Position numbers and translations under genes: made by a program
Notes under the pieces: model-generated
Told to the model about the DNA's origin: nothing
The model's input: only the letters and a program-made list of their open reading frames with translations
Databases searched by the model: none
Assembly: GCA_016790815.1 (NCBI GenBank)
Contig: JAEUOG010000022.1
Location: forward strand, 1-32,088
DNA length: 32,088 bases
Direction: 5' to 3'
From: Dechloromonas sp.
GTDB lineage: Bacteria; Pseudomonadota; Gammaproteobacteria; Burkholderiales; Rhodocyclaceae
Shown: positions 3,966 through 29,021 of the stretch, piece by piece
Layout: the number at the start of each line of letters is the position of its first letter
How positions within the stretch are numbered: position 1 is the first letter of the stretch

Positions 3966-4709
3966 TCAGTTCTTCGTCATCGGGCAGGCGTCTTCCGACG
4001 CAACGAAGCGGAAATCGGCGAAGCCGGCATGCGCTTCCTCGCCAGTATTATCGGTATCCGAGGCGATAGCCAGCCCCCTCAGTTCGCCGCCGATATCGCC
4101 AAATGCCGTTTGAAAATCGGCCAGGACGTTTCGCCGTTCCTGCACCCAGGCTCCCGCCTGCCCGGCACCAGAGCGCAACACCAGCATGCGCGCCCGATCG
4201 GTGTAGGCGTTGTCCTGCAAGGTGCCGATCGGGTGGCGGTTGTCCCAGATGTAGTTCAGCGCGGCATCGGGTACCTGACTGCCGTAGATCGACCGTGCCA
4301 GCCGAAGTTTGGAACGGGTGGCGAAGCCCAACTGATCGGGCGGCACCGCAAAGGTCAGATAGACTCGGGCGGCGTAATCATCGCCGGATTTTCGGGTCAT
4401 GTCGGCAGAGGCAACGGGCGCGTCTATCCGCCATTGCCAGCACAAAATGGGCGTTTTTCTGAGGTCGACCGCAGCAGTCCGTCCGAGCAATGCCATGCTC
4501 TTCTTTGCCCTTGCTTCGATGGCAACGACCCCGTCCCATTTGCGCAATGTGTACTGGGTTGGCGCCACACGCAGGTCGAGATGCTCAACTTTCCAGGGCG
4601 CCGGAATGGTCGTGTCACTTTCGTTGAAGCGGCCGACCCAGAGTGGATCGGCCAGGGTTGCAAAGGGAATGCCCATGCCAACCAGGCTGGCGAGGAAACA
4701 CCGAGTCAT
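3966..4709 (-). CDS. DUF3047 domain protein, exported
   Basis: A 247-aa protein with a signal peptide (hydrophobic residues 4-18, likely cleavage after TLA at about residue 20), so probably periplasmic. The rest fits DUF3047: LCWQWRI and KSGDDYAARVYLTF near the middle, LNYIWDN, and a final FADFRFV strand, consistent with a lectin- or glycanase-like beta sandwich. Function is unknown. The start overlaps the stop of the YiiX-like gene as ATGA. The stretch encoding TAAVDLRKTPIL (4442-4477) is one copy of the dispersed repeat described below. In this cluster DUF547, YiiX-like and DUF3047 genes form a coupled exported trio. Confidence 0.83.
   Translation of the reverse strand: MTRCFLASLVGMGIPFATLADPLWVGRFNESDTTIPAPWKVEHLDLRVAPTQYTLRKWDGVVAIEARAKKSMALLGRTAAVDLRKTPILCWQWRIDAPVASADMTRKSGDDYAARVYLTFAVPPDQLGFATRSKLRLARSIYGSQVPDAALNYIWDNRHPIGTLQDNAYTDRARMLVLRSGAGQAGAWVQERRNVLADFQTAFGDIGGELRGLAIASDTDNTGEEAHAGFADFRFVASEDACPMTKN
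4442..4477 (-). repeat. Dispersed CGGTCRACC repeat, copy in DUF3047
   Basis: Read on the minus strand: CTGCTGCGGTCGACC, then an A-rich block, CGCCC and ATTTTG. It matches the GCTGCGGT-type copies at 24362 and 9226 in order and spacing, and is translated in frame. Confidence 0.65.
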
Positions 4710-5500
4710 ATACTGGCCTCACGCTGCGCAGCCTCGGGCAAATGGTCGGCCCAGTTGAGACGACGGTATTCGAAGCCATTATCCAGTGTTGGCTTGATCA
4801 CCTGAAAATAGGGCGACACATCGAAATCCCGCGGGACGAACAGGCTGTGATGGCGAATGCGCAGTATTTCGTCGATGCATCCCGGGCAGTCCTGACGATT
4901 GCTAGCGCGCAGTTCGATATCGGGCAGGATGGGGTAGCGCACCGACTGAAAACATTGCGCGATCAACGTCGAGCAGATGGCTCGCGTCGGGTCTCCGCTA
5001 CCCAGCGAGAGCATTCGGCGTCGCCAGCGTTGCGGCACGGGAGGCGTGGGTATCAGGTAACGTGCCAGATCGAAGACATTTTTCAGGTCGTATTGCTGGC
5101 CAACCCGTCCCAGTCCGTAGTCGATGACGCGTTGCCGGTCCTCATCGGAAAGGCCGACAGGCCGGCAGATGCGGCAGTGCAAACCATCGAATTCGGCTAG
5201 TTCAACCAGGCGAATACCTTCGATGATATCTGCCTCGACAAAGTTCAGCGGGGTGCCGTTCGGGCCGTTGCATTCAGCAGCATCGCCGATAAAAAGTGCC
5301 GCATGCGACCAAGTGGATTGGGTCAGATATTTTATCGCCACACTGACTCTCGTTTCACCTTCAACCAGAAGCACGTCCCCGGGCCGGAGCGCTTTAGCAA
5401 GTAATTCCAGGGGCGTCGGTAGCGAGGCGCCATGGCGGTGATGGGGCTGGCTAAGCCAGCGTCCCAACCAACTACCGACACGGCGAGCCAGCACGTTCAT
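4706..5500 (-). CDS. YiiX/YebB-like permuted NlpC/P60 cysteine hydrolase
   Basis: A 264-aa protein of the circularly permuted papain-like group (YiiX/YebB). The block LRPGDVLLVEG, with catalytic His66 in WSHAALFIGDA, precedes the catalytic Cys176 in AICSTLIAQ, which is the permuted His-before-Cys order. FVEADIIEG (about 88-96) supplies the usual acidic region. Family members cleave amide or ester bonds in lipids or peptides; the substrate here is unknown. There is no clear signal peptide, though residues 5-18 are amphipathic. It overlaps both neighbours by 4 nt (ATGA at 5497-5500 and 4706-4709), so it is tightly coupled to DUF547 and DUF3047. Confidence 0.82.
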   Translation of the reverse strand: MNVLARRVGSWLGRWLSQPHHRHGASLPTPLELLAKALRPGDVLLVEGETRVSVAIKYLTQSTWSHAALFIGDAAECNGPNGTPLNFVEADIIEGIRLVELAEFDGLHCRICRPVGLSDEDRQRVIDYGLGRVGQQYDLKNVFDLARYLIPTPPVPQRWRRRMLSLGSGDPTRAICSTLIAQCFQSVRYPILPDIELRASNRQDCPGCIDEILRIRHHSLFVPRDFDVSPYFQVIKPTLDNGFEYRRLNWADHLPEAAQREASI

Positions 5501-6333
5501 TTTTGTGCCTTGGTGCGCTCTGTTGCACTGACATCATTCAGCCGCCAGTCGTATTCAAGGAACGTCAGTTTGTAGTCACCCTGGCGAATTCGCTCCTGTG
5601 CATCCGGTGTTTTGGCAAGTTGCCCGGCATAACGACCAAAGGTGATTTTGAGCGAAGCGAAGCCCTGATGACCTTTCTCGAAATCCTTGCCGTACCAGTC
5701 GAATATTTTCGAAACCTGGAGCTTTCCACTGGCTGTGTCGAAGCGATTGCGACTGCTGTCGGCGAGGAAGCGGCGCATGCCGTCTTCCAGATGGCTATCC
5801 AGCTTTTCAGCCGTAAAGGCTTCGGGCCGCAACATCGGGCAACCGATTGAAGCGCAGACGACGGCTGCATGAATACGCGGATCGTCGAAAGTACCCGGGG
5901 CGCGGATCAGGCCGTGTTCGATATCGTCGAGTGCCATTTCCTGGCCGAAGAGCGGGATGAACTTCTTCTTCCAGGGCGACTGGAAGACACTGCCTAGATC
6001 CTTGATCGATTTGAGGTCAGGATATTTACGCAACACTAGTTCAACCGTCCAGGCATTGTAGCCATTGATCAGGAAGGCCAGGCGTTTCGCTTTGGGCCAC
6101 TGCTTGTACTCGGCTTCCGGGACTGCGGAAACTGTTTTGAGCCAGGTTTGGAGCATCGCCTGATCGGCCGCCATACCGCGATAGTCTACCCGGCTCGAAT
6201 AGCCGTCCGGCGCCACCTTGACGTGTTTAGCCAGTAGCGTGTTCCATTCCCGGTAGTCGTGGTCAAAGGCGACAGCCGAGAAACTGGCCATCGTCATGAG
6301 CGCCAGCAGGCTGAATTTCTTAAGGATCGTCAT
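5497..6333 (-). CDS. DUF547 domain protein, exported
   Basis: A 278-aa protein with a signal peptide (MTILKKFSLLALMTMASF, cleavage near AVA-F at residue 22), so likely periplasmic. DUF547 hallmarks are FLINGYNAW (87-95), DPRIHAAVVCASIGCP (151-166, Cys160 and Cys165) and the C-terminal FLEYDWRLN. DUF547 is unassigned; the conserved His and Cys hint at a cysteine-peptidase-like or transglutaminase-like fold, which is inference. It begins 5 nt after the FAD/TVP38 fusion stop, with a GGGGGT ribosome-binding stretch before the ATG at 6333, and overlaps the next gene by 4 nt. In databases DUF547 genes commonly accompany TVP38/TMEM64 and arsenosugar-type glycosyltransferase genes, as here. Confidence 0.87.
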   Translation of the reverse strand: MTILKKFSLLALMTMASFSAVAFDHDYREWNTLLAKHVKVAPDGYSSRVDYRGMAADQAMLQTWLKTVSAVPEAEYKQWPKAKRLAFLINGYNAWTVELVLRKYPDLKSIKDLGSVFQSPWKKKFIPLFGQEMALDDIEHGLIRAPGTFDDPRIHAAVVCASIGCPMLRPEAFTAEKLDSHLEDGMRRFLADSSRNRFDTASGKLQVSKIFDWYGKDFEKGHQGFASLKITFGRYAGQLAKTPDAQERIRQGDYKLTFLEYDWRLNDVSATERTKAQK

Positions 6334-6338
6334 CGGGC

Positions 6339-8649: not shown

Positions 8650-9261
8650 TTACTTGCGATCGCCCCACAACTGCTGGACGCGTGCATCCCGGCCGCAGCC
8701 TGAACGATAGTACGCGTAGCGGATCGGGTTCTTCTTGTAATAGTCCTGATGGTATTCCTCGGCCGGCCAGAAGGTCGAAGCCGGAAGCACCTCGGTGTAG
8801 ATCACCGGAAAGCGCGCACTCTTGAGCAAGGCATCACGGCTGGCTTCAGCTGCGTTTTTCTCGGCATCGTTCTGCCAGTAGATGCCGCTGCGGTACTGGC
8901 TGCCTGCATCGCAGAACTGGCGATCCTTGACGGTCGGGTCGATGTGCCGCCAGAAGTACTCCACCAGTTGCGGGTAGCTGACTTTTTTCGGGTCATAGAT
9001 CACGCGCACCGCCTCGGTGTGCCCGGTCCTGCCAGAACTGACCGCTTCGTAGCTTGGGTTCTTCGTCGGGCCCGCTGTGTAACCGGATTCGACTTCGATG
9101 ACGCCGGGCAACTTTTCAAAGTCGGCTTCGATGCACCAGAAACAGCCGCCGGCAAACAACGCGCTGGCCTTGGCTGCCTGGGGTTCCAGCGCCAGAGTCT
9201 GGAAACTCGCCGTCAGCGCGGCTATTGCTGCGGTCGACCGGAAAAAATGATTGATTTTCAT
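8650..9261 (-). CDS. msrA: Peptide methionine-S-sulfoxide reductase MsrA, exported
   Basis: A 203-aa MsrA that reduces the S-epimer of methionine sulfoxide in proteins. The start at 9261 overlaps the msrB stop as ATGA and gives an N-terminal signal peptide (MKINHFFRSTAAIAALTASF, likely cleavage near LALE), so it is probably periplasmic. The catalytic GGCFWC (about 38-43) is intact, followed by GYTAGPTKNPSYEAVSSG, the HTEAV block and the QYRSGIYW signature. EYHQDYY and a late Cys in SGCGRD could serve as resolving thiol. The signal-peptide codons overlap a copy of the dispersed repeat (9226-9260). The gene is coupled to an exported MsrB, forming a periplasmic methionine-repair pair next to a sigma-factor-like promoter. 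Confidence 0.95.
   Translation of the reverse strand: MKINHFFRSTAAIAALTASFQTLALEPQAAKASALFAGGCFWCIEADFEKLPGVIEVESGYTAGPTKNPSYEAVSSGRTGHTEAVRVIYDPKKVSYPQLVEYFWRHIDPTVKDRQFCDAGSQYRSGIYWQNDAEKNAAEASRDALLKSARFPVIYTEVLPASTFWPAEEYHQDYYKKNPIRYAYYRSGCGRDARVQQLWGDRK
9226..9260 (+). repeat. Dispersed CGGTCRACC repeat, copy in msrA signal peptide
   Basis: Reads TTGCTGCGGTCGACCGG, six As, then TGATTGATTTTC on the plus strand. The first 22 bases match the intergenic copy at 24362 exactly. The distal half has diverged. It encodes the FFRSTAAIAA part of the MsrA leader. Confidence 0.7.
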
Positions 9262-9755
9262 GTCAGCAGCGCCGGCAGTGCGTCGCCCTTGGCGACAAAT
9301 TTGAGTGCGATACCATTGTTGCAGTAACGCTTTCCAGTCGGTTTCGGGCCATCGTCGAAAACATGCCCCTGATGCCCGCCGCAATGCGAGCAGTGATACT
9401 CGGTACGCGGGAGGATCAGCTTGAAATCGGTCGAAGTACCGACGGCGCCGGCCAGCGGCTGCCAGAAACTCGGCCAGCCGGTGCCGCTCTCGTATTTATG
9501 GGCGCTGTCGAACAGCGGATTGTTGCAGGCGGCGCAGATAAAGGTGCCAGCGCGTTTTTCGGCGTTCAACGGGCTACTGCCAGCGCGCTCGGTACCATCC
9601 TCGAAAAGCACGACGTAGGCGTCTGGCGGCAGCTGCTTTTTCCATTCAGCGCGGCTTTTGTTGAGCGGAAACTTGCTGGCTGCCGAAACGCCGAAGGGAA
9701 GGGCGCTGGCGGCAATCAGCCCGGATACGCGGGCAATCCAGTGGCGACGGTTCAT
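9258..9755 (-). CDS. msrB: Peptide methionine-R-sulfoxide reductase MsrB, exported
   Basis: A 165-aa MsrB reducing the R-epimer of methionine sulfoxide. The leader MNRRHWIARVSGLIAASAL with an RR pair and Ala-rich stretch looks like a Tat or Sec signal, cleaved near SAA-SKF, so it should act in the periplasm. The SelR domain follows: zinc pairs CAAC and CSHC, the GTGWPSFWQP block, GGHQGHVFDDGP, and catalytic Cys in RYCNN. The start has a GAGGAA ribosome-binding site 6-7 nt upstream. It lies 56 nt after phnC and its stop overlaps msrA. Separate exported MsrA and MsrB differ from the fused PilB-type enzymes. Confidence 0.95.
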   Translation of the reverse strand: MNRRHWIARVSGLIAASALPFGVSAASKFPLNKSRAEWKKQLPPDAYVVLFEDGTERAGSSPLNAEKRAGTFICAACNNPLFDSAHKYESGTGWPSFWQPLAGAVGTSTDFKLILPRTEYHCSHCGGHQGHVFDDGPKPTGKRYCNNGIALKFVAKGDALPALLT

Positions 9756-9811: not shown

Positions 9812-10615
9812 TCAAGAAAATGCTGAGCGCCGGGGGCTATCCGGCAGTTGCCAGGGAACAGCGGGAACGGTCTCGTCGGGGCGATACAAATTGGTCAGTT
9901 TTTGGTCGTCGACCGCAGAAAGCGGCAAATCGAAGGCGATCCGGCCGCTTTTCAGGCCGATGACCCGATCGGCCAGCAAGGGCAGCAAGGACGGGTTGTG
10001 GACGATAGTGACCAGCGTAGCATGGCTCGCCGCCTGGGCCAGCAGGTGACAAACCTCGCCTGCGGCGGCCGGATCGAGCGCCGCCGTCGGTTCGTCGGCG
10101 AGAATGAGTTTTGGCCGCTGGACAAGCAGGCGGGCGATGGCGATCTTCTGCCGTTCGCCGCCGGAAAGCTTGTCGGCCCGTGTCGTGGCGCGGGCCAGCA
10201 GGCCGACGTCGTGCAGCGCAGCTTCGGCAGCGCTGACCTCGTCAGCCGGAAAATGGCGAACCCAGCTACGCCAGCCGGTGACGCGACCGAGGCTGCCGAT
10301 CAGCACGTTTTCCAGCGCACTCAGGCGACCCACCAGATGCAGGCCTTGGTGGATCTGTCCAACTTCGCGGCGCAGGGCGCGCAGTTCCCGGGGAGACGGG
10401 CTGCCGCTCAGATCGTGGGCGAGCACGTCGACCCGGCCATGCGCTGCCGGCATGAAGCCGGTCAGCAGGCGGAGCAGCGTCGATTTGCCGGCGCCATTGT
10501 GGCCGACGATGGCGATGCGCTCGCCGTGGCAGATGTTCAGCGTGCCGACATCGAGCAGCGACCGTCCTCCGGCAATGCAGCACACCTGCTGCAGGGAAAT
10601 GACCATTCCGTTCAT
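9812..10615 (-). CDS. phnC: Phosphonate-type ABC transporter ATP-binding protein (PhnC-like)
   Basis: A 267-aa ABC ATPase for a PhnCDE-type importer. Walker A GHNGAGKST lies at about residues 36-44, the signature LSGGERQK mid-protein, Walker B LILADEPTAALD after it, and a late switch His in TIVHN. The PhnC-like Q-loop region GQIHQGLHLVGRLSALENVL matches the phosphonate subfamily. I choose the ATG at 10615 because it overlaps the permease stop as ATGA. The gene order here is D-E-C rather than the common C-D-E. The C-terminal 40 residues after the H-loop are short of extra domains. Substrate is not determined by this subunit. Confidence 0.9.
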   Translation of the reverse strand: MNGMVISLQQVCCIAGGRSLLDVGTLNICHGERIAIVGHNGAGKSTLLRLLTGFMPAAHGRVDVLAHDLSGSPSPRELRALRREVGQIHQGLHLVGRLSALENVLIGSLGRVTGWRSWVRHFPADEVSAAEAALHDVGLLARATTRADKLSGGERQKIAIARLLVQRPKLILADEPTAALDPAAAGEVCHLLAQAASHATLVTIVHNPSLLPLLADRVIGLKSGRIAFDLPLSAVDDQKLTNLYRPDETVPAVPWQLPDSPRRSAFS

Positions 10616-13639: not shown

Positions 13640-16600
13640 TCAGTGGAAATCCCGGCTCGATGTTTCCAGCCGGCCTAGCCATGCTGAAAGGTCGACCAGT
13701 CGCTTGGCAACGAGGTGAACGACTTCTCCTTCGATCTGCAGTTGGCCGTAAATACCGAGCAGCGTTGCGCTCAGTAATTCGCGGCGTTGCTTGTCGACCA
13801 GTTGCGGATGGACGACGACATTGACTAGTCCGCTTTCATCTTCCAGTGTAACGAATACGATGCCGGTTGCTGTGCCCGGTCGCTGGCGACCAACGACAAT
13901 GCCGGCGGCGCGGACTAGCGCGCGATGGCCGGTTGTTTTGAGTTCGGCTGCCGTAACGAAGCGGCGCTCGAACAAATGCTGGCGGAGCAGCGCCAAGGGA
14001 TGACGGCGCAAGGTCAGGCCGAGACTGTGGTAATCGGCGATCAGGTTTTCGGCTTCGTTGGGCATGGGCAGTTCGGTTTTTGGCTCGCTGATGGTTGTGC
14101 CCTCGAAGAGATCGCCCTGAACTTTTGTCATTGTTTTTTCCACGCAGGCTGCCCAGGCGGCTTGTCGGCGGTGACCGGCCAGGCTTTGCAGGGCATCGGC
14201 GGCGGCAAGCTGATCGAGATCGCGGCGTTGCAGGCCGGCGCGCGCCGCCAGATCGGATACATTCAAAAACGGCCCTTTTTCCCGGTTGACCGTGGCAATG
14301 CGTTGCGCGGCCGCCTGCGAGAAGCCGCTGATCTCGCGCAGGCCGAGGCGGACCGCTCCGTTTTCATCGATGATGCTGTCCCAGTCGCTAGCCGTGACAT
14401 CGGGTGGCAGGACGGTGACACCATGACGCCGCGCATCCTGAACCAGCATGGATGGCAAGTAGAAACCCATGGGCTGGCTGTTGAGCAGGCCACAGAGGAA
14501 AACGGCCGGATGGTGTCGTTTCACCCAGGCCGAAACATAGACGAGCAGCGCGAAGCTGGCGGCGTGCGACTCGGGGAAGCCGTATTCGCCGAAGCCCTGG
14601 ATCTGCTGGATGATGCGTCGGGCAAAAGCCTCTGGCAGGCCGTTGGCTGCCATGCCGGCGAGCAGTTTCTGCTCGAATGGTTCGAGGCCGCCCTTGCGCT
14701 TCCAGGCGGCCATGGCGCGGCGCAACTGGTCGGCTTCACCGGGGGTGAAATTGGCTGCAACGACGGCCAGTTGCATGACCTGCTCCTGAAAGATGGGTAC
14801 GCCGCAGGTGCGTTTGAGCACCGCATCGACGGCCGGCGAGATTTTGTCGATACGCTCCCTGCCCTGTCGCCGCTTGAGGTAGGGATGCACCATGTCGCCC
14901 TGGATCGGCCCGGGCCGGACGAGCGCCACCTCGATGACGAGATCGTAGTAGCAGCGTGGCTTGAGGCGCGGCAGCATGGCCATCTGGGCGCGCGACTCAA
15001 CCTGGAAGACGCCCATGCTGTCGGCGTGGCAGAGCATTTCGTAGGTTTTCGGGTCTTCCGGCGGGATATCCTTCAAGTTCCACGGTCGACCGGAAATTTC
15101 ACCCAGAATTGAAAGCATGCGGCGGATGGCCGAGAGCATGCCGAGGGCCAGTACATCGACTTTCATGAGGCCGACGGCGTCGAGATCGTCCTTGTCCCAC
15201 TGGATCACCGTGCGTTCGGGCATGGCGGTGTTTTCGACCGGAACCAGCCGGGCGAGCGGCCCGCGCGACATGACGAAGCCGCCGACGTGCTGCGTCAGAT
15301 GGCGGGGGAAACCGCGTAATTGCCCGGCGATCCACAGCCACTTTTCGACACGCGGCGAGCTTGGGTCCAGCCCCTGCTCAGCAAACCGCTCGGGCAATTG
15401 CTCGCGCTTGTCCCACCAGGCCAGCGAGGCGGTCAGCGCGTCGATGCGCGCCGTCTCGAAACCGAGCACCCTGCCCGCATCGCGCAATGCGCCCTTGGTC
15501 CGGTAGGTGATGAGCGCAGCGGCCAGCGCCGTGCGCTCGCGCGTGTATTTCTGGTAGATGTAGGCGATGACTTCGGGGCGGCGTTCGTGCTCGAAATCGA
15601 CGTCGATGTCCGGCGGCTCGCCCCGCTCCTTCGAGATAAATCGCTCGAACAGCATGCCCGAGCGATCCGGGCTGACTTCGGTGATGCCCAGCGCGAAACA
15701 GACGATCGAATTGGCTGCCGAGCCGCGCCCCTGGCACAGGATGCCGACGCTGCGCGCGAAGCAGACGATGTCGTACACCGTCAGGAAATAGGCTTCGTAT
15801 TTGAGTTCGGCGATCAGTGTCAGCTCGTGCTCCACGATCCTTCTAACATGATCCGGAACGCCTTGCGGATAGCGCCGCAGCAAGCCGCGCTCGGTTTCAT
15901 GGCGTAGCCAGGAAGTCGGCGTATGGCCGGTTTCGACGATTTCCTCCGGGTATTCGTAGCGCAGTTCATCGAGCGAGAAGCTGCACAGATCGGCAATCTT
16001 CAGCGTTTCAGCCAGCAGTTCCGGCGGATAGAGGCGGGACAGGCGCAAGCGCGTGCGGAGATGGCGCTCGGCGTTGGGAAACAGCGCGTAGCCGGCGTCG
16101 AAAACCGTCGCTTTGAGGCGCAGCGCGGTCAATACATCCTGCACCGGACGGCGCGCCTTGACGTGCATGTGGACGTCGCCACACGCCACCAGCGGCAAGT
16201 CGCAGGCCGCGCCAAGCGCTTGCAGTCCGGACAGCCGGGTCGCATCGTCCGGCCCGGCGTGGAGTTCGACGACGATCCATGCCCTGCCGGGAAAGCGCTC
16301 GGCCAGCCAGCGCCCGTCGTCGACCGAGGCACCCTCGCCCGGCACCCAGAGCAAAAGACAATCAGGCACGGCACCATTCGGCGAGACGATATTGAGGTCG
16401 TGTCGCTGCAAGGTGTAAGCCCCCTTCTCCGCCCGCCGCCGGGCCAGCGTGATGAGTGCTGAGAGATTGCCGTAGCCCTCGCGGTTTCTGGCCAGGAAGA
16501 CCAGTTTCAAGCCATCGATGGTGGTCATTTCGCTGCCGACGATCAGCTTGAGCCCGGCCTGCTTGGCTCCCTGATGCGCACGCACGATGCCAGCCAGCGA

Positions 16601-16735
16601 ACATTCGTCGGTCAATGCCAGCGCCGCGTAGCCCTGGGCTGCGGCCTGCGCGATCAGTTCAGCCGGATGCGAGGCACCACGCAGGAAACTGAAATTGGAG
16701 AGGCAATGCAGCTCGGCGTAATCAGGTAGCGACAT
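13640..16735 (-). CDS. dnaE2: Error-prone DNA polymerase DnaE2 (ImuC)
   Basis: A 1031-aa C-family polymerase that extends past DNA lesions in SOS mutagenesis. The N-terminal PHP domain begins YAELHCLSNFSFLRGAS. The catalytic palm has the PDIDVDFE acidic motif near residues 375-382, preceded by the GRGSAANS loop (about 335-342). The length is close to the DnaE2 norm and shorter than DnaE1. A C-terminal OB domain is present (VFVTLEDESGLVNVVVHP). It starts 18 nt after imuB and closes the lexA-imuA-imuB-dnaE2 operon. Two clear copies of the dispersed repeat lie in frame inside it (14262-14298 and 15078-15114), at ATVNREKGPF and ISGRPWNLKD. Confidence 0.96.
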   Translation of the reverse strand: MSLPDYAELHCLSNFSFLRGASHPAELIAQAAAQGYAALALTDECSLAGIVRAHQGAKQAGLKLIVGSEMTTIDGLKLVFLARNREGYGNLSALITLARRRAEKGAYTLQRHDLNIVSPNGAVPDCLLLWVPGEGASVDDGRWLAERFPGRAWIVVELHAGPDDATRLSGLQALGAACDLPLVACGDVHMHVKARRPVQDVLTALRLKATVFDAGYALFPNAERHLRTRLRLSRLYPPELLAETLKIADLCSFSLDELRYEYPEEIVETGHTPTSWLRHETERGLLRRYPQGVPDHVRRIVEHELTLIAELKYEAYFLTVYDIVCFARSVGILCQGRGSAANSIVCFALGITEVSPDRSGMLFERFISKERGEPPDIDVDFEHERRPEVIAYIYQKYTRERTALAAALITYRTKGALRDAGRVLGFETARIDALTASLAWWDKREQLPERFAEQGLDPSSPRVEKWLWIAGQLRGFPRHLTQHVGGFVMSRGPLARLVPVENTAMPERTVIQWDKDDLDAVGLMKVDVLALGMLSAIRRMLSILGEISGRPWNLKDIPPEDPKTYEMLCHADSMGVFQVESRAQMAMLPRLKPRCYYDLVIEVALVRPGPIQGDMVHPYLKRRQGRERIDKISPAVDAVLKRTCGVPIFQEQVMQLAVVAANFTPGEADQLRRAMAAWKRKGGLEPFEQKLLAGMAANGLPEAFARRIIQQIQGFGEYGFPESHAASFALLVYVSAWVKRHHPAVFLCGLLNSQPMGFYLPSMLVQDARRHGVTVLPPDVTASDWDSIIDENGAVRLGLREISGFSQAAAQRIATVNREKGPFLNVSDLAARAGLQRRDLDQLAAADALQSLAGHRRQAAWAACVEKTMTKVQGDLFEGTTISEPKTELPMPNEAENLIADYHSLGLTLRRHPLALLRQHLFERRFVTAAELKTTGHRALVRAAGIVVGRQRPGTATGIVFVTLEDESGLVNVVVHPQLVDKQRRELLSATLLGIYGQLQIEGEVVHLVAKRLVDLSAWLGRLETSSRDFH
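14262..14298 (-). repeat. Dispersed CGGTCRACC repeat, copy 1 in dnaE2
   Basis: On the minus strand: TTGCCACGGTCAACCGGG, an A5 block, GGGCC, G, TTTTTGAA. All blocks of the consensus are present in order. Translated as part of ATVNREKGPFLN. Confidence 0.75.
15078..15114 (+). repeat. Dispersed CGGTCRACC repeat, copy 2 in dnaE2
   Basis: Plus strand: TTCCACGGTCGACCGG, AAATTTC, ACCC, then AGAATTGAAA. The left end is the TTCCACGGT type shared with 17042 and 28984; the right end AATTGAAA is shared with 17042 and the copy at 28908. Confidence 0.75.
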
Positions 16736-16753
16736 GGATTCATCAGGTCGTGT

Positions 16754-18223
16754 TCAGGCGAACAGGCCGTGCAGGAACCAGCCGTCGGCGTTCCTGAACA
16801 CCCACGCCCACTGGCCGAGCGGGTTGCGGGCGACGAAATAGTCACGCCGCACGTCGCCGGTCGCACCGCCCTCGCCTTCGTCCCACCAGCCGCTTTCCAG
16901 CCGTTCGGCGCGTGGCAGCAGCTTGAGCGGGCCATGCCATTGCGGGCTGCCGGCCCGTTCGGGCAGCGCCTGCGGGGTCGGCAGCAGCCACAGCGGACGG
17001 GAAGGAGTGCTGTTGGCCACCACCCTGCCTGTTTTTTGCGCTTCCACGGTCGACCGGGAAAAACGGCCAAAATTGAAATCCACTTCTTGCGCCCGCGTCG
17101 CGCATTCGGGGCGGTAATCGGCCATTTCACCGAGGGCCAGCACCGCCCCTTCACCCAACCGGGCACGCAGACGTTCCAGACAGGCCAGCGTACCCTCGCC
17201 GGCCGTGGCTTGCTCGAACAGCGGGGCGCTGATACCGGGCTTGTCGACCAGCTCATCGGCCTGCAGGCGCAGGGCTTCGACCGGCGCCGTGAGGTGCAGC
17301 CGCGAAAGATGCTCGCGCAAGAGGCGAACGAAACGTCCCTCGTCTGCCGCCGGTTCGGCGAAATTCAGGGCCAACGACGTTGGCGGCCCGTCGTCGTGTG
17401 TCAGTTGCAGCGAGCAGCGACGAACCAGCAATTGCCGGCTGTACAGCCAGCCGGCCAGGGCCGCGAACAGACGCTGACCAGCAAAAACCAGCGCCTCGGC
17501 ATGTTCGACACGCGATGGCAACTCGATGGCAATGGCGAAGCTTTCCGGAAAAGCGAAGGACTTCTGCGGATCGTACAGTTCACCCCAGGCGCGCAGCAGA
17601 TCGTCGAGCGGCCCGTTGCCGATGCGCCGCCGCAAGCCGGCTCCGGGCAGTTTGTGCAGATCACCCAGTTGCCGCAGGCCGAATGATTCGAGCCGCTTCG
17701 TCACTTCCTCCGGCCAGCCGGGAACGGCACAGGGCAAGACGGCCAGCGCTGCCTGCATGCCAGCTGTTTCCGGGTGCATCCGGCCTGAAGCGGCACGCGC
17801 CAGCCAGTGCGCACCGAGCGGCGTTGGCGCCGCTGCCCAGCGGGTCGAATAGGACTGTTCGGCACAACCGGCCAGCGCCGCCATCACGATCGCTTCGGCG
17901 CCGCCAAACAGGCGCAGGCAGCCGCCTATTTCAAGCAACAGCGTATCCGGCGACACCAGGCTGATCGTTGGCGTGAAGCGCCCGGCCCAGCAGGCCAGAT
18001 TGTCCAGCGCCTGCTGTTCGCGCACCGCGCAGCGTTCGAAAACGCTTAACCAGGGCAGCAGGCCCAGCGCCGTCGATAGTTTCTGGCCGGCGCAAACCCC
18101 CGCTGCCACAGCCTCGGCATCAGCCACCTGCACCCGGCCGCGGGCGACGACCGCGCTAGGCGACTGGCGCAGCGGCAGGGCCTCGAGCGGCAACAAGGGA
18201 AAGTGCAGGGCCAGCCACAACAC
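16754..18223 (-). CDS. imuB: Y-family-polymerase-like protein ImuB
   Basis: A 489-aa ImuB, the non-catalytic Y-family relative that bridges DnaE2, ImuA and the beta clamp. I start it at GTG 18223 ([16 protein letters not shown]) because GGGAG sits 8-10 nt upstream and the family N-terminus matches. The longer open frame to an ATG at 18334 would read through imuA. The metal-binding acidic residues of true Y-family enzymes (usually a DxD near the N-terminus) are replaced by LALHF, as expected of ImuB. The little-finger-like part and a long C-terminal region follow, ending WVFRNADGWFLHGLFA. It overlaps imuA by 68 nt, an unusually long overlap. A repeat copy is translated as part of FGRFSRSTVEAQ (17042-17079). 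Confidence 0.93.
   Translation of the reverse strand: MLWLALHFPLLPLEALPLRQSPSAVVARGRVQVADAEAVAAGVCAGQKLSTALGLLPWLSVFERCAVREQQALDNLACWAGRFTPTISLVSPDTLLLEIGGCLRLFGGAEAIVMAALAGCAEQSYSTRWAAAPTPLGAHWLARAASGRMHPETAGMQAALAVLPCAVPGWPEEVTKRLESFGLRQLGDLHKLPGAGLRRRIGNGPLDDLLRAWGELYDPQKSFAFPESFAIAIELPSRVEHAEALVFAGQRLFAALAGWLYSRQLLVRRCSLQLTHDDGPPTSLALNFAEPAADEGRFVRLLREHLSRLHLTAPVEALRLQADELVDKPGISAPLFEQATAGEGTLACLERLRARLGEGAVLALGEMADYRPECATRAQEVDFNFGRFSRSTVEAQKTGRVVANSTPSRPLWLLPTPQALPERAGSPQWHGPLKLLPRAERLESGWWDEGEGGATGDVRRDYFVARNPLGQWAWVFRNADGWFLHGLFA
17042..17079 (+). repeat. Dispersed CGGTCRACC repeat, copy in imuB
   Basis: Plus strand: TTCCACGGTCGACCGGG, A5, CGGCC, AAAATTGAAA. This is the best match to the inferred consensus in the window. 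Confidence 0.78.
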
Positions 18224-18878
18224 GCGAAGATCTCCCGGCAACAGGACGAGGAATGGACAAGGCGAGCGGCCGGGAAATCGGCCGACCACGCCGCTTGATG
18301 ATGCGTACCGACAAATCAGTGTCGCTCGCCGCATTCAACATGACCCGCAGCGGCGCCGGCGACGGCATCCCGGCTGCTGCGGTCGACCGCCATAAACAGG
18401 CAAAAACCGAGCGCCCCTCGGCAGCCACCTGCAGCCGGCGCAAGGCACGGGCATTGATGTTCGCTTCCGGCCAGGCCAGTACGCCGGCAAAACCACCGCT
18501 GGCAAGCAGTTGTTCGACACTCCAGCCAACGCTCTTGCCCGCCTTGACAACGACCAGCCGGTCCAGCGCCACGCCAGCCGCCGACCAGGCCGGGGCATGT
18601 GGCAACCACGGCGGTGCAACGAGTGCCAGCCAGCCGCCCTCGGCCGACAAACGGGCCAGCGTCGGCAGGAGCAAGCTCATTTCACCGACACTGCTGCGGT
18701 CAACGAGAATTTCGGTCAAATTTCCGCGTGGCCAGCCGCCACCCGGCAATTCGGCATCGAGTTCGGCATGGCCGCTCGGGATGGCGCTTTCCGGCAGCGT
18801 GGCCAGCGTGTCGCCGCGCCAGACATCGCCCCGGGCCAGCACATCCGCCAAGGCAACCGGCAACGGCTGGGCGTTCAT
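18156..18878 (-). CDS. imuA: Translesion synthesis accessory protein ImuA
   Basis: A 240-aa ImuA (RecA/SulA-like fold) of the SOS mutasome. The core [19 protein letters not shown] matches RecA-family openings. The following nucleotide loop is degraded ([10 protein letters not shown] in place of a Walker A), as usual in Imu[22 protein letters not shown] and [20 protein letters not shown] follow. The start overlaps the lexA stop as ATGA, so it is translationally coupled to the repressor. Its C-terminal 22 codons overlap imuB in another frame and are Ala/Pro/Val rich. It contains two degraded repeat copies (18373-18405, 18691-18724). Confidence 0.92.
18373..18405 (+). repeat. Degraded repeat copy in imuA (proximal half only)
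   Basis: GCTGCTGCGGTCGACCG is intact, but the A-rich, GGCC and AATTGAAA blocks are eroded to CATAAACAGGCAAAAA. Kept as a weak member because the first 16 bases match the GCTGCGGT type. Confidence 0.4.
18691..18724 (+). repeat. Degraded repeat copy near the imuA start region
   Basis: CTGCTGCGGTCAAC, then GAGAATTTCGGTC and AAATTT. The spacing of blocks is right but the palindrome's second half is lost. Confidence 0.35.
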
Positions 18879-19921: not shown

Positions 19922-21268
19922 TCAGGTCGGCAGATCGAAGCCTTTCAGCTTGCGGTACATGTCGACTGCGTAGGAGTCGGTCATGCCGGCGACGAAATCG
20001 GCAACCTGCAACAGGCGAATGTAGGGATCGGCATCCGGTTCGCCACCATGGCCGAGGAACTGCGTCGGCAGCAGCTTGAGCAGCATGCGCTCACGAGTGG
20101 TGAAGCGGGCGTGCCCTGCCCTCGCCTCGACCGCATTGGTAAATAAGCCGAGCAAGGCGCCGAGGACCTCGAAACCGGCGGTTTCGATCTCCAGCGCCGG
20201 GCGGGCGGTGTAGATCGTTTCCTTGGCCAGCTTGAGAATGGCCTGCAGCGGATGCGCAATGGGCGAGCTTTCGAGCAGTTCGTCATCGAAGGAGCCGCTC
20301 AGGATGGCGTCCTCGTTTTCCAGAAAGACCGCCGCAGCGCTTTCGAGCAGACAGCCGATGGCCTTGGCGCGCAGGTATTCGAGGCGCTCCTTCGGGTCGT
20401 GCAGATGGTGCAGCCGAGCGCCGTTGATAGTGTTGCCGGCCAGATCGGCGAGCAGGCATTCGGCGTCCTTGTAGGGCACGAAGCCGAGCCGGGCGGCATC
20501 CTCGAGATCGACGATCAGGTAACAGGTATCGTCCGCGACTTCGACCAGAAAAGCCAGCGGATGGCGGCGCCAGGCGGTATTGGGAATTCGCTCGATTAAC
20601 CCGGTCGACCGTGCAACGCGCCGGAAATTATCGATATCCTGCTGGAAAAAGCCAAATTTCTTGCCGCTCTTGCCATCCAGCTCTTCGTCAAGATGCGATG
20701 GGCGCGGGTATTTGGTGAAAGTTGCCAGCACCGCGCTGCTCAGTTGCAGGCCGCCGGGATTGGCCGGGCTTTGCAAACGGCTGACGATGCGAAAACCCTG
20801 CGCGTTGCCCTCGTAGCGCTCAAAGTCGGCTCTCTGCGCCGGTGTCAGGTCGTGGCGATCAAGCAGGCCGGAATGGCGAAACCATTCGCGGATGGCGTCC
20901 TCGCCGGCGTGGCCGAAGGGTGGATTGCCGATGTCGTGGGCCAGGCAAGCCGCTGCAACGATGGCGCCGAAATCGCCCGATTCAACGTGCTGCAAGCTGT
21001 GCCGGGCGATGATCTCGCGGCCGACCACGGCACCCAGCGAGCGGCCGACGCAACTGACTTCCAGGCTGTGCGTCAGGCGGGTGCGCACGTAATCGCTCTT
21101 GGACAGCGGGAAAACCTGTGTCTTGTCCTTCATGCGCCGGAAGGCGGAGGTGAAGACGATGCGGTCGTAATCCTGCTGGAATGCCGTACGCTCTGCCGTA
21201 CCGGGCGCCTTGCCGGCCCCCAGACGTTCGCTCGACAGCAGTTTTTCCCAGATTTTTCGTTTGCCCAT
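19922..21268 (-). CDS. dgt: Deoxyguanosinetriphosphate triphosphohydrolase (Dgt family)
   Basis: A 448-aa HD-domain dNTPase that cuts dGTP or other dNTPs to deoxynucleoside plus triphosphate. ATG 21268 gives MGKRKIWEKLLSSERLG with a GAAGAG stretch upstream; a TTG at 21277 is a less likely start. Metal-binding HD residues are seen in RLTHSLEVS and CLAHDIGNPPFGHAGEDAI. The early block DYDRIVFTSAFRRMKDKTQVFP is the family nucleotide-binding region. Length fits the bacterial Dgt-like type 2 group. It lies 35 nt after the thioesterase stop, so the two may be cotranscribed. Confidence 0.93.
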   Translation of the reverse strand: MGKRKIWEKLLSSERLGAGKAPGTAERTAFQQDYDRIVFTSAFRRMKDKTQVFPLSKSDYVRTRLTHSLEVSCVGRSLGAVVGREIIARHSLQHVESGDFGAIVAAACLAHDIGNPPFGHAGEDAIREWFRHSGLLDRHDLTPAQRADFERYEGNAQGFRIVSRLQSPANPGGLQLSSAVLATFTKYPRPSHLDEELDGKSGKKFGFFQQDIDNFRRVARSTGLIERIPNTAWRRHPLAFLVEVADDTCYLIVDLEDAARLGFVPYKDAECLLADLAGNTINGARLHHLHDPKERLEYLRAKAIGCLLESAAAVFLENEDAILSGSFDDELLESSPIAHPLQAILKLAKETIYTARPALEIETAGFEVLGALLGLFTNAVEARAGHARFTTRERMLLKLLPTQFLGHGGEPDADPYIRLLQVADFVAGMTDSYAVDMYRKLKGFDLPT

Positions 21269-24335: not shown

Positions 24336-24361
24336 TCGGCTTCGGGAAAACCGTAGCAGGA

Positions 24362-24400
24362 TTGCTGCGGTCGACCGGAAAAATGGCCTGAAATTCGAAA
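24362..24400 (+). repeat. Dispersed CGGTCRACC repeat, intergenic copy after fabI
   Basis: Plus strand: TTGCTGCGGTCGACCGG, A5, TGGCC, TG, AAATTCGAAA. It is not coding on either strand and ends exactly where the fabI terminator stem begins. Confidence 0.75.
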
Positions 24401-24432
24401 ACGCCAGCCAGTGAAAACTGGCTGGCGTTTTT
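24398..24432 (+). terminator. Intrinsic terminator of fabI
   Basis: A 15-bp perfect stem (24398-24412 with 24417-24431; ACGCCAGCCAGT arm) with a GAAA tetraloop runs into Ts. The A/T flanks would let it act on both strands. Confidence 0.92.
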
Positions 24433-26487: not shown

Positions 26488-27909
26488 TTAGGGACGGCAA
26501 AAGATCGCTCCAAGCCGACGCACGGCATCCTCGATTTCCGGCGTGTGCGGATTGCCGCAATTGAGCCGCAGGCAGTTGCGGTACATGCCGCTGGCCGAGA
26601 ACAGGTCGCCCGGCACGTAGGCGAGATTCTCGCGGATGACCAGGTCGTAACGGCTTGCGGTGTCAATGTTTTCGGGCAACTCCACCCACAGGACATAGCC
26701 GGCCTGCGGCTGGGTGATGCGAGTCTCCGCCGGGAAGTAACGACTGACGGCGAGGCGCATCGCGTCGACCTGCTGTTGATAGGCCCTACGCAGGGTACGC
26801 AGATGACGCTCGTAGGCGCCGGATTCCAGGTACTCGGCCAGCACATGCTGGGTAATCGGATTGGTACCGCCGCTGGTGATGGTTTTCTGCAGTGCGATCG
26901 CCGCGCGGTAGCGGCCGGCGGCGACAAATCCGATGCGCAAGGCCGGCGACAGGCTTTTCGAAAATGACGAGCAGAGCATGACGTTGCCAGTCTTGTCGAA
27001 AGCCTTGATTGGCCATGGCCGCTCGCTGCCAAGATGCAGGTCGCCGTAGATATCGTCCTCAATAACCACCACGCCGCGTGCTGCGGTCAACGCCGAAAAC
27101 TGCCGTTTTCTGTCGTCCGGCATGACGCAGCCGAGCGGGTTGCTGCCGTTCGCGACGATCAGACAGGCAGCGATACCGCCGTTGCGCGTCGCCATGTCGA
27201 GCGCTTCGACTGACATGCCGGTGCGTGGATCGGTCGGTATTTCCAGCGCTTTAAGGCCGAGCGTTTCCAGTAGTTGCAGCATCAGATAATAGGCCGGTGA
27301 CTCCACCGCCACCGTGTCTCCGGGCTTGGTAACGGCCCGCAGGCACAACCCGAGCGCTTCGGTGCACGAATTGGTGATGACGAATTCTTCGGCCGGTATC
27401 GGCCCGCCCCAGGCCAAAGAACGGCGAACAAGCTGGCGAACAAGCGCAGCCTCATCCATATTGATATGGCTGCCGCCTTCGAGCAGCTTCGGGAGGCGCC
27501 GAGCCACGCCGGCATACAGGCGCTGCAAGGCTGCGACCGGCAGCAAGTCAGGTGCAGGCAGGGCCGCAGCCAAGGGCGCCACCCCGCTTTTGGCCCCGGC
27601 GCGCAGGACGTTGACCAGCCGTTGAGAAATATCGACCGGCATCGGCGCTTCAGGCGTCGAGCGCACGACCGGCTCGGCCCGTACGGCCCGTACGCGCTGG
27701 ACGAAAAATCCGGACTGCGGGCGAGCCTCTATCAGGCCGCGATCCTCGAGCTGACGCAACGCCTGAACGACGGTCGACACGGAAAGCCGCCGCTCCTTCG
27801 ACAAGCGCCTCACCGACGGCAGGCGGTCGCCTTGATTCAAGACACCGCTGGCGATCATACCAGCAAGATCGGCCGCCAATTGCTCGTAGCGTAGTAGCTC
27901 TTCGTTCAT
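26488..27909 (-). CDS. MocR-type regulator (GntR HTH + aminotransferase domain)
   Basis: A 473-aa PLP-dependent transcription regulator. Residues about 1-75 are a GntR winged helix (GDRLPSVRRLSKERRLSVSTVVQALRQLE, then SGFFV). The rest is a class I aminotransferase fold: NGSNPLG, EDDIYGDLH, and the PLP-binding Lys in SSFSKSLSPALRIGF (near residue 317). MocR proteins usually sense an amino acid or PLP derivative and activate a divergent gene. Here the divergent gene is DUF2917 (148-bp gap), and the gap carries four ACTGTA/TACAGT half-sites. The C-terminus NCGNPHTPEIEDAVRRLG is complete. Ligand unknown. A partial repeat copy lies at 27079-27112. Confidence 0.92.
   Translation of the reverse strand: MNEELLRYEQLAADLAGMIASGVLNQGDRLPSVRRLSKERRLSVSTVVQALRQLEDRGLIEARPQSGFFVQRVRAVRAEPVVRSTPEAPMPVDISQRLVNVLRAGAKSGVAPLAAALPAPDLLPVAALQRLYAGVARRLPKLLEGGSHINMDEAALVRQLVRRSLAWGGPIPAEEFVITNSCTEALGLCLRAVTKPGDTVAVESPAYYLMLQLLETLGLKALEIPTDPRTGMSVEALDMATRNGGIAACLIVANGSNPLGCVMPDDRKRQFSALTAARGVVVIEDDIYGDLHLGSERPWPIKAFDKTGNVMLCSSFSKSLSPALRIGFVAAGRYRAAIALQKTITSGGTNPITQHVLAEYLESGAYERHLRTLRRAYQQQVDAMRLAVSRYFPAETRITQPQAGYVLWVELPENIDTASRYDLVIRENLAYVPGDLFSASGMYRNCLRLNCGNPHTPEIEDAVRRLGAIFCRP
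27079..27112 (+). repeat. Degraded repeat copy in the MocR gene
   Basis: GTGCTGCGGTCAAC, CGAAAAC, TGCC, GTTTTCTG. The blocks follow the same order as the dnaE2 copy at 14262, with small indels. Confidence 0.45.
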
Positions 27910-27919
27910 GGGGAAGCAC

Positions 27920-28004
27920 CTGTACAGTTATGCCGGACCATGACCAGCACAGTTAGAAATATTCATAACTGTATTGATCACAATTTAAATTCATTGCTAC
28001 TGTA
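27920..28004. promoter_or_regulatory. Four ACTGTA half-sites between MocR and DUF2917
   Basis: Two direct ACAGTT sites (27924-27929, 27949-27954) are followed by two direct ACTGTA sites of opposite sense (27968-27973, 27999-28004). Symmetric pairs of direct repeats in a divergent gap are typical MocR operators. None forms CTGT-N8-ACAG, so they are not LexA boxes. Confidence 0.55.
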
Positions 28005-28056
28005 TCACTCGGAGGCGCGAACCTACACTTTCTCCACGACTAGAGCGGAGAGTGTC

Positions 28057-28359
28057 ATGAATAGCCATCGGGTTTTGCGCGAAGTGGATCTACCCCAGGA
28101 TCACCCCATTCGCCTCCAAGACGCGGCAGGCACCCGCGTACGCTGCCTGCGGGGAACCATCTGGATTACCGTTGCCAGCGAACCTGACGACATTTTTCTG
28201 AGCACCGGCCAGAGCTACCTCATTCCACGCAACGGCCTGAGTCTTGTCGAACTGCTGGACGGCGGCAGCATTGAGCTGGAGCGCCAGAGGCCGTTCGGAA
28301 AGCTGAGGGAGTGGCTCGATGGCCTGGTCAGGCGCATGAGCAAGGAACTGGTGCTCTGA
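28057..28359 (+). CDS. DUF2917 domain protein
   Basis: A 100-aa protein. I start it at ATG 28057 (MNSHRVLREVDL), 7 nt after GGAG; an upstream ATG at 27940 would run through the operator half-sites. The DUF2917 core is visible: LQDAAGTRVRCLRGTIWITVASEPDDIFLSTGQSYLIP and GLSLVELLDGGSIEL, a cupin-like beta domain. Function unknown; DUF2917 genes often lie next to MocR or LysR-type regulators. It is divergent from the MocR gene and probably its main target. It converges with the 70-aa gene, with only 6 nt between stops. Confidence 0.85.
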   Translation: MNSHRVLREVDLPQDHPIRLQDAAGTRVRCLRGTIWITVASEPDDIFLSTGQSYLIPRNGLSLVELLDGGSIELERQRPFGKLREWLDGLVRRMSKELVL

Positions 28360-28365
28360 AAAAAT

Positions 28366-28578
28366 TCAATCGAAGAGATCCGGCTGCATGGGCACCAGGT
28401 TGTTCCGCTTGACGGTGAGCCTGACCAGCACGCCTTTCTTGCCAACCGCCTCGACCACCATGCGTCCGGCCGAGGCCTCGGCCACCACACGAACATTGCG
28501 CGTCGACTGGCGGCTGCGCCCACGGTAGATAGCCAGCGTCCCGGCTGGCGGAATCCAGGCTAGCTTTGGGCGCGGCAT
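28366..28578 (-). CDS. Small basic protein of unknown function (70 aa)
   Basis: A 70-aa protein starting at ATG 28578 (MPRPKLAWIPPAG), with GAAAGG about 7 nt upstream. An ATG at 28674 would extend it through a LexA box and is less likely. The middle is basic and beta-like (GTLAIYRGRSRQSTRNVRVV, GRMVVEAVGKKGVLVRLTVKRNNL), and the C-terminus is MQPDLFD. There is no membrane helix or signal peptide. I do not recognise a family. It is divergent from the 54-aa gene and shares its LexA-box region, so it could be SOS-linked. Confidence 0.6.
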   Translation of the reverse strand: MPRPKLAWIPPAGTLAIYRGRSRQSTRNVRVVAEASAGRMVVEAVGKKGVLVRLTVKRNNLVPMQPDLFD

Positions 28579-28640
28579 GGTGAGCCTTTCATACTTTGCA
28601 GATGTCCGAAGCCTACCCCGGAAAAATGATTTCCCGAATA

Positions 28641-28656
28641 CTGTACATCCATACAG
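28641..28656 (+). promoter_or_regulatory. LexA (SOS) box 1, sulA-like
   Basis: CTGTACATCCATACAG, CTGT-N8-ACAG. With flanks (28639-28658) it equals the E. coli sulA operator, as I recall it, at 19 of 20 bases. It abuts the -35 of the small-protein promoter. Confidence 0.8.
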
Positions 28657-28658
28657 TT

Positions 28659-28688
28659 TTGACTTATTGTGCACTTGAACGCAAATAA
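28659..28688 (+). promoter_or_regulatory. Promoter of the 54-aa gene, between two LexA boxes
   Basis: TTGACT (28659-28664) is a good -35. AAATAA (28683-28688) at 18 bp, or CAAATA at 17 bp, is a weak -10. The elements fit exactly between the two LexA boxes, so LexA would cover both ends of the promoter. Confidence 0.55.
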
Positions 28689-28704
28689 CTGTTCATCCAT
28701 ACAG
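28689..28704 (+). promoter_or_regulatory. LexA (SOS) box 2
   Basis: CTGTTCATCCATACAG, CTGT-N8-ACAG, one base different from box 1 and 48 bp (centre to centre) from it. It covers the likely transcription start, 23 nt before the ATG. Confidence 0.78.
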
Positions 28705-28726
28705 CTGTCGATAAGGAGTCTCCATC

Positions 28727-28891
28727 ATGAAACGTCTTCAACACTGGTTCGACCTGATTGCTGGCATTTCCCACGACGAGCATGCGCGCCTCGAGTACGC
28801 TAGGCGTATCTTCAGCGCCAGCGGCCCTGACGTCGAAAAACTCCAGATGCCCGCCTGCTGGCGACGCAGCGCCCGTGTCGTTATCAACTGA
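28727..28891 (+). CDS. 54-aa small protein, probable SOS-induced
   Basis: An ORF of 54 codons plus stop. A perfect AAGGAG (28713-28718) lies 8 nt before ATG 28727, and two LexA boxes flank its promoter, so expression upon DNA damage is very likely. It begins MKRLQHWFDLIAGISHDEHA, continues with an amphipathic RLEYARRIFSASG and ends CWRRSARVVIN. There is one Cys, no signal peptide and no membrane helix. I recognise no family. The position, size and operator resemble small SOS-induced cell-division inhibitors, but there is no sequence evidence for that role. It is followed by hairpins and the inverted repeat pair. Confidence 0.7.
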   Translation: MKRLQHWFDLIAGISHDEHARLEYARRIFSASGPDVEKLQMPACWRRSARVVIN

Positions 28892-28907
28892 CACCGAATG
28901 AACTCCC

Positions 28908-28945
28908 GTTTCAATTTCGGGCAAAATTCCCGGTTGACCGCAGGA
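28908..28945 (-). repeat. Dispersed CGGTCRACC repeat, left arm of inverted pair
   Basis: On the minus strand: CTCCTGCGGTCAACCGGG, AATTTTGCCC, GAAATTGAAAC. It faces the copy at 28984; their CCGGTTGACCG/CGGTCAACCGG cores are perfect complements. Confidence 0.75.
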
Positions 28946-28966
28946 GCGCCTTGCAAAGGCCTCCTG
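28941..28966 (+). other. Hairpin between the inverted repeat copies
   Basis: CAGGAG-CG-CCTT, loop GCA, AAGG-C-CTCCTG: about 10 bp with one bulge. No T-run follows. It may end or stabilise the small-protein mRNA. Confidence 0.45.
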
Positions 28967-28983
28967 CTGACTCAAAGACGGGA

Positions 28984-29021
28984 ATTCCACGGTCAACCGG
29001 AAAAAAAGGCCCAAAATGAAA
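28984..29021 (+). repeat. Dispersed CGGTCRACC repeat, right arm of inverted pair
   Basis: ATTCCACGGTCAACCGG, A7, GGCCC, AAAATGAAAA on the plus strand. It ends where the rhodanese-gene terminator stem begins, just as the fabI copy abuts a terminator. Confidence 0.75.

Follow-up and report, generated by a model that had tools for sequence, protein, structure and literature searches.

A dispersed repeat of ~38 bp runs through a 32,088-nucleotide stretch of Dechloromonas sp. DNA (contig JAEUOG010000022.1 of assembly GCA_016790815.1; "the window" hereafter means this whole stretch), and its sequence, abundance and placement indicate that it probably serves an Azonexus-type betaproteobacterium as a DNA uptake signal sequence. 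As contig C54, the window belongs to a draft genome of 2.54 Mb in 81 contigs (completeness 76%), which we refer to as the source genome (G000), the other genomes of its genus and family being labelled with G-numbers; we infer that the genus is Azonexus or close kin. A first-pass annotation of the window had noticed eleven copies and had proposed DNA uptake, nucleoid organisation, chromosome segregation or descent from a tiny mobile element to account for them, and uptake is the option that our tests, all made on sequence, favour among these. It also seems likely, if a little less so, that the repeat belongs to a third, independently evolved self-recognising uptake system outside the Pasteurellaceae and Neisseriaceae, in an environmental genus of betaproteobacteria, with a 38-bp signal, an A/T architecture like that of the Pasteurellaceae uptake signal sequence (USS), and dialects that would act as exchange barriers.

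Architecture and abundance of the repeat

Reading the motif in its own orientation and counting from the C of CGGTC (position 0), we refined the design to T-n-C-Y-R-CGGTCRAC-(cgg)-A/T tract-GGCC-A/T tract. The upstream part has T at -5, C at -3, Y at -2 and R at -1; CGGTCRAC (positions 0 to 7) is nearly invariant, and the CGG of the second half-palindrome is conserved only to 64 to 71%. The first A/T tract occupies +12 to +16, a GGCC-like block +18 to +21 and the second A/T tract +23 to +27, while a weaker SRAA reaches to ~+31 and conservation is nil from +33. The ordered design proposed at first sight thus stands, as does an asymmetric core followed by two A/T blocks about one helical turn apart (the tracts are 11 bp apart); the palindromic CGGTCRACCGG, however, loses its central place, since the weak conservation of the CGG half makes the core asymmetric and the palindrome secondary, the near-invariant part being CGGTCRAC with the upstream T and C.

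Matrix searches were made in a 403-kb sample comprising the window and 20 other stretches of the source genome, each picked for a core match, which raises the density of copies in it. In this sample 169 sites scored above 11 bits compared to 2 in one order-3 Markov null, and 164 scored above 14 bits, compared to a mean of 0.1 and a maximum of 2 for 30 column-permuted matrices and to 0 for both the reversed and the complemented matrix. Six of the 164 sites are the same near-palindromic core read on both strands, leaving 158 distinct cores (15.1 to 53.5 bits, median 37.6) for the tests of spacing. A matrix built only from sites of the 20 other stretches (training sites that had earlier been picked with a matrix including window copies) recovered all 11 of the copies noted before, at 24.8 to 50.2 bits, with every position and strand confirmed, and added two that had been overlooked, for a total of 13 in the window (Table 1). 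The three copies formerly described as degraded are present, but their 37.1, 29.2 and 24.8 bits fall inside the range of the sample cores. A repeat-finding tool grouped several window copies without guidance, and ten column-permuted matrices gave no match above 14 bits in the window.

Over the whole source genome the 19-base pattern CYRCGGTCRACNNNNAWWW, which covers the core and the first A/T block, was found 399 times and its reversed form 0 times; CGGTCRACCGG was found 217 times, versus 19 for the reversed control. These numbers are far above the prediction from base composition, the reverse of the outcome that the first-pass annotation had named as fatal to its proposal. As 91 matches to CYRCGGTCRACNNNNAWWW in the 403-kb sample (91 of 91 at a distinct matrix core) correspond to 158 cores, the 399 matches translate to roughly 690 copies in the assembled 2.54 Mb, or ~270 per Mb. 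Moreover, a 10-mer ranking to which no motif was supplied (some of the G000, G002, G011 and G033 stretches had been picked at known matches, favouring the motif) returned motif pieces for 15 of the 15 top 10-mers listed for the source-genome sample and for the leading ten of G002 and nine of G011; the G033 list mixed motif pieces with others and that of G029 was swamped by another repeat. The G029 stretches L265-L271 contain a ten-mer set repeated ~49 times in 140 kb, perhaps one CRISPR-like array.

The same controls bear on the suggestion that the repeat is a by-product of DNA modification, or of mutation bias around GTYRAC-type sites, in the manner of HIP1, a palindrome of cyanobacteria. GTCRAC does sit inside the near-palindrome of the core; yet the conserved block covers ~38 bases with asymmetric A/T tracts, the second half-palindrome is the less conserved one, and the reversed, complemented and permuted matrices recover practically nothing, leaving such a by-product a very slim chance.

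Chromosomal placement and turnover of the copies

As had been seen in the window, the copies occupy both strands (80 of the 158 distinct cores minus, 78 plus). Their spacing is unusually even, with a coefficient of variation of 0.64 versus 0.91 for uniform placement and 0.95 for a gene-aware null in which the intergenic excess is respected, and 0 of 2000 random sets were as even under either null. The largest interval between copies is 6.7 kb (median of 10.5 kb in the gene-aware null), and only 3 of 137 spacings are below 100 bp.

Gene calls came from a crude in-house caller that missed at least one open reading frame (ORF) of the window, an imuA-like ORF, and 2 of the 65 sites (of 164) counted as intergenic in the sample actually lie inside it; intergenic DNA makes up 12.8% of the bases, and its density of distinct cores is 4.2 times that of coding DNA. 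The earlier statement that most copies lie inside coding genes is correct for the window (7 of 13, or 9 of 13 counting the imuA-like ORF); in the sample, copies are enriched in intergenic DNA. Among the 99 coding copies 52 run along the gene and 47 opposite to it, one reading frame being favoured in each orientation without being exclusive (39 of 52 and 29 of 47, respectively). The coding copies are not one conserved protein motif, the case that would have told against the proposal, as they fall in unrelated proteins, on both strands and in several frames.

The intergenic enrichment would suit an operator, terminator or mRNA-stability element, as would the window pair at 28908/28985, which lies within a long predicted hairpin. 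A transcription signal of this kind is nonetheless very unlikely, considering that 99 of the 164 copies lie in called genes with little preference for either direction, that copy density is similar in tandem, convergent and divergent gaps (1.25, 1.49 and 1.05 per kb, respectively), that A rather than T tracts follow the core, and that close pairs are so few.

We compared orthologous positions in 174 comparisons (38 source-genome sites, 50 loci of relatives) and at 520 control places; the comparisons are not independent, many relatives sharing the dnaE2-imuB region. In no comparison was a stretch of at least 25 bases missing from the relative at the site (0 of 174; controls 0 of 520), and relatives without 10 to 24 bases there were found in 2 of 174 (controls 1 of 520). 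The relative clearly has no motif in 88 comparisons, of which 85 are free of gaps of at least 10 in both sequences; altogether 118 of 174 sites are gap-free, versus 457 of 520 controls. In three alignments the relative carries 27 inserted bases at the site or close to it (L076 at 14262; L066 and L073 at 15078), and in a smaller set (67 alignments, 151 comparisons, 25 sites) gaps of at least 15, both sequences pooled, occurred at 5 of 151 sites versus 3 of 300 controls. Motif presence drops with distance, from 25 of 33 at 85% identity or more to 7 of 26 below 75%, and the differences between orthologues arise by point substitution. Among pairs of at least 82% identity, which give 42 comparisons at 21 sites, identity is 94.6% in columns 0 to 7, 96.8% in CGG, 88 and 89% in the A/T tracts and 91.6% in GGCC, compared to 83.0% in the flanks (80.5% upstream, 86.9% downstream; core vs flanks, Fisher p ~1e-9 with dependence ignored).

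A small non-autonomous mobile element, similar to repetitive extragenic palindromes (REP) or miniature inverted-repeat transposable elements and inserted at hundreds of places before decaying, would also have a long consensus, many copies, a partial palindrome and some inverted pairs. As no relative was without at least 25 bases at a site, and as nearly all clear absences are free of sizeable gaps and dnaE2 and other conserved genes contain copies in frame, we consider this the least probable of the explanations discussed here, including in the form of a remnant in which it had first been offered; an excess of small gaps at the sites (given below) fits fast-evolving positions.

Even spacing could instead be the mark of an intracellular binding site, kept at regular chromosomal intervals for a nucleoid-organising, replication or repair protein, and this would also agree with the large information content and with an uneven replichore density in G029, a complete chromosome for which all 80 copies were listed (GC skew of 20 samples places the origin near 0 and the terminus near 1.82 Mb). 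KOPS and Chi are skewed in orientation from origin to terminus and SlmA/Noc-type sites are absent around the terminus, unlike the copies in G029, which, as the sole chromosome tested, has no replication polarity (38 copies with replication, 42 against) and no terminus depletion (18 of 80 copies in 1.5-2.0 Mb). The occurrence of copies within genes on both strands, their patchiness in one genus (0 to 559 per genome) and their turnover between orthologues likewise speak against such a site, and to our knowledge no architectural site combines ~38 bp of specificity with hundreds of copies. We therefore regard an intracellular site as unlikely, and the chromosome-segregation option, in particular, is disfavoured by the lack of polarity. 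Copy density in G029 peaks before the terminus and is about twice as high on one replichore as on the other. In G210 the listed copies are all plus; this apparent strand polarity was rejected as a listing artefact that favoured forward matches.

Range, dialects and relation to known uptake systems

Across 150 genomes surveyed in the family, 4 from the host genus and 146 from 67 other genera, more than 4 pattern matches were seen only in members of the host genus, and none of 368 other genomes of the class had more than 5. A long consensus pattern matched at least 117 stretches in a collection of 84,980 species, and the 80 matches listed are all metagenome-assembled and titled Azonexus sp., Azonexaceae, Rhodocyclaceae, Betaproteobacteria, Proteobacteria or Gammaproteobacteria. 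Two pattern scans of a viral collection found no copies, a negative of little weight that depends on the number of Azonexus phages in that collection. Within the genus the distribution of the motif is patchy. Counts of CYRCGGTCRACNNNNAWWW in 19 genomes (CGGTCRACCGG alone was counted in some others) were highest in G002 (559), G033 (498) and the source genome (399, from a partial genome), followed by G210 (146), G011 (129), G125 (102), G016 (95), G031 (89), G019 (88) and G029 (80), then G007 (75), G023 (69), G018 (54), G175 (25) and G062 (20), and finally G034 and G021 (3 each) and G015 and G012 (0 each).

Core and tracts are common to the genomes sampled, and a few positions vary as dialects: at -1, G002, G011 and G210 have A, G033 has G and the source genome has both; at +5, G002 and G011 have A; and at -2, G011 has C or G, which would account for its few matches to the CYR pattern in the face of 458 to CGGTCRACCGG. 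These dialects were read from small samples (23 to 86 sites each for G002, G011, G033 and G210), the G210 loci having been fetched with the pattern itself. The G029 matrix drifted on iteration to a degenerate motif, and for that reason we relied on the exact pattern in this genome. In 80-100 kb each of the motif-poor G012, G015 and G021, unguided 10-mers gave no comparable dispersed repeat that could be an alternative dialect, and no motif pieces among the top 10-mers listed. The G012 stretches L249-L253, from a genome without the motif, carry a repeat GGGAGAGGGG with 19 counts in 86 kb versus 0.05 expected.

A pilus capable of DNA uptake is plausible in the genus, judging from domain matches in 24 chosen genomes: ComEC in 23 (no hit in G008), DprA in 23 (no hit in G018), ComEA over the cut-off in 23, and GspH/FimT and ComP_DUS (PF16732) in all 24. 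We tried these five families as a discriminator and rejected them, as they fail to split motif-rich from motif-poor genomes, and the net charge of the PF16732 pilins gave no such split either (by eye, 29/30 loci; two loci gave no pilin, and G008 and G023 are probably represented by a neighbouring FimT-like pilin). In the source genome the ComP_DUS match is a 127-residue pilin next to a gene whose match to PilC-type tip adhesins is below the cut-off. Its best matches among solved structures are mainly to N-terminal pilin helices, while beyond the helix it matches the type 4 fimbrial biogenesis protein PilE (4noa, E 1.4e-7), and over the cut-off NCBIfam gives only a general prepilin motif. In the complete, motif-poor genome G034 the ComEC domain match falls into two overlapping pieces (G034:C1:1959178-1959913), possibly a broken comEC or a sequencing error.

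If the repeat is an uptake signal, a DNA receptor of the type IV pilus or competence machinery, probably a minor pilin, would prefer fragments bearing the core, and the stiff A/T tracts may shape the DNA or help it to kink for passage through the outer-membrane secretin, after which ComEA and ComEC would receive it. As the fragments preferred in this way recombine, the motif would become more numerous wherever codon or intergenic constraint permits, roughly every 2 to 4 kb.

Several observations weigh against an uptake signal. Motif-poor G012, G015, G021 and G034 carry the same competence and pilin families as the others, so gene content does not track the motif; in the source genome (a draft 76% complete) ComEA matches only below the cut-off, and its PF16732 pilin resembles an ordinary minor pilin of the PilE type. 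Few copies form inverted pairs, in contrast to Neisseria. The two replichores of G029 hold 56 and 24 copies, an imbalance that uptake does not predict. In the close orthologue pairs the T-n-C-Y-R block is 77.8% identical, no better than the flanks, and the relative has gaps of 1 to 9 nt more often at sites (38 of 174) than at controls (46 of 520), although small indels would be expected at fast-evolving positions of low constraint. Finally, we found no report of transformation or uptake sequences in Azonexus or Dechloromonas in the open-licence literature, and the impression of the first-pass annotation that no description exists for this lineage agrees with our finding no account of the repeat in that literature on Rhodocyclaceae, Dechloromonas, Azonexus or betaproteobacterial uptake sequences.

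The closest known parallel to the candidate uptake signal is the USS of Pasteurellaceae, for which we compared the Hin-type AAGTGCGGT and the Apl-type ACAAGCGGT. In the parts of the literature drawn on here, the Haemophilus influenzae USS is described as a core followed 3' by two A/T motifs, and USSs tested by the authors were not insertions (PMC1626085); its GCGG is crucial for uptake, the A/T tracts being predicted to be rigid, slightly bent and interacting with the core (PMC7811141). Both the USS and the present repeat have a fixed core with two A/T motifs on one side (centres 12 apart in the Hin-type, 11 here), provide the most over-represented 10-mers of their genomes, are not inserted and occur as lineage-specific types; furthermore, the GCGGTC of the present copies with G at -1 also occurs in the top Apl-type 10-mer ACAAGCGGTC. 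The present repeat differs in its near-invariant CGGTCRAC with T at -5, in having A or G at -1 according to species, in a first A/T tract that starts at +12, after RACCGGn, instead of directly behind the core, in the GGCC-like block between the tracts, and in belonging to a betaproteobacterium with a 60% G+C genome. Its estimated ~270 copies per Mb are also below the 1471 USSs reported in 1.8 Mb of H. influenzae. It is thus not a Pasteurellaceae USS proper, i.e., a core ANNNGCGGT with an A/T motif just 3', given the A at -1 in G002, G011 and G210 and the tract at +12.

Neisseriaceae, classed in NCBI taxonomy as Betaproteobacteria like the present host, have a DNA uptake sequence (DUS; GCCGTCTGAA and dialects) that is likewise abundant, differs by species and is taken up by a pilus, and members of the host genus match the ComP_DUS Pfam model. 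The DUS is built on a CTG core, exists in dialects and has ComP as its receptor (PMC3630211, PMC12616744); it is ~10 bases long and without flanking motifs. The present sequence is unrelated to it, has over three times its length and seldom forms close inverted pairs, and the lists of 15 top 10-mers from eight genomes contain no CTG-core 10-mer of the GCCGTCTGAA type. Even spacing and no orientation bias are discussed for uptake sequences (PMC1939737), and in both families complementary copies lying close together often make up terminators (PMC1852404). We also considered REP elements and bacterial interspersed mosaic elements in this comparison. Such elements are dispersed, partly palindromic and sometimes arranged in inverted pairs, as is the present repeat, which unlike them is not inserted, often lies inside genes and has an asymmetric A/T tail. 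The repeat has most of the genomic properties of uptake sequences and the sequence of neither family.

Uptake sequences are discussed only for Pasteurellaceae and Neisseriaceae in the portions of the literature drawn on, and ideas on their evolution and on the mechanical need for A/T tracts thus rest on two lineages. If the present reading is correct, a third lineage would provide an independent replicate of the USS-like layout in a 60% G+C betaproteobacterium, suggesting that the A/T tracts are functional and not an accident of base composition. There would be a new receptor-motif pair to find, and dialects, which would act between species as barriers to genetic exchange, could be seen appearing and disappearing within a single genus.

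Copies in the window and their surroundings

Table 1. The 13 copies of the repeat in the window, with scores from the matrix built without window sites.
Position	Strand	Bits	Location	Remarks
4439..4476	-	29.8	inside DUF3047 gene	Pfam DUF3047
9226..9263	+	39.4	junction of msrB-like gene (ends 9258) and msrA-like gene	SelR and PMSR domains; ORF borders ambiguous, no called gene covers the copy
9883..9920	-	28.5	inside ABC-transporter ATPase gene	Pfam ABC_tran; unlisted earlier
14260..14297	-	40.7	inside dnaE2-like DNA polymerase gene	Pfam DNA_pol3_alpha; orthologue alignment
15078..15115	+	40.6	inside dnaE2-like gene	relatives differ mostly by gapless substitution
17042..17079	+	50.2	inside imuB-like gene	Pfam IMS; top score of the window
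18375..18412	+	37.1	inside imuA-like ORF (18156-18878, minus)	
18692..18729	+	29.2	inside imuA-like ORF (18156-18878)	second copy in this ORF
20579..20616	-	28.4	inside HD-domain gene	Pfam HD; unlisted earlier
24363..24400	+	46.6	intergenic	adjoins a strong separate hairpin ending in T (fold of 24355-24430)
27079..27116	+	24.8	inside GntR/aminotransferase regulator gene	Pfam GntR, Aminotran_1_2
28908..28945	-	45.8	intergenic	half of divergent inverted pair; hairpin in fold
28985..29022	+	49.8	intergenic	other half of divergent inverted pair; hairpin in fold

The imuA-like ORF has a RecA-family match below the cut-off and was omitted by the gene caller used, and the part of the query around the imuB-like copy matches many other places in relatives. 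The dnaE2-imuB-imuA-like mutasome operon (13640-18878) holds five copies, two in dnaE2, one in imuB and two in the imuA-like ORF; genome-maintenance genes frequently hold uptake sequences. Elsewhere in the window, positions 508-956 encode a tRNA cluster, Gly-Cys-Gly-Leu, in which the two tRNA-Gly genes are nearly identical.

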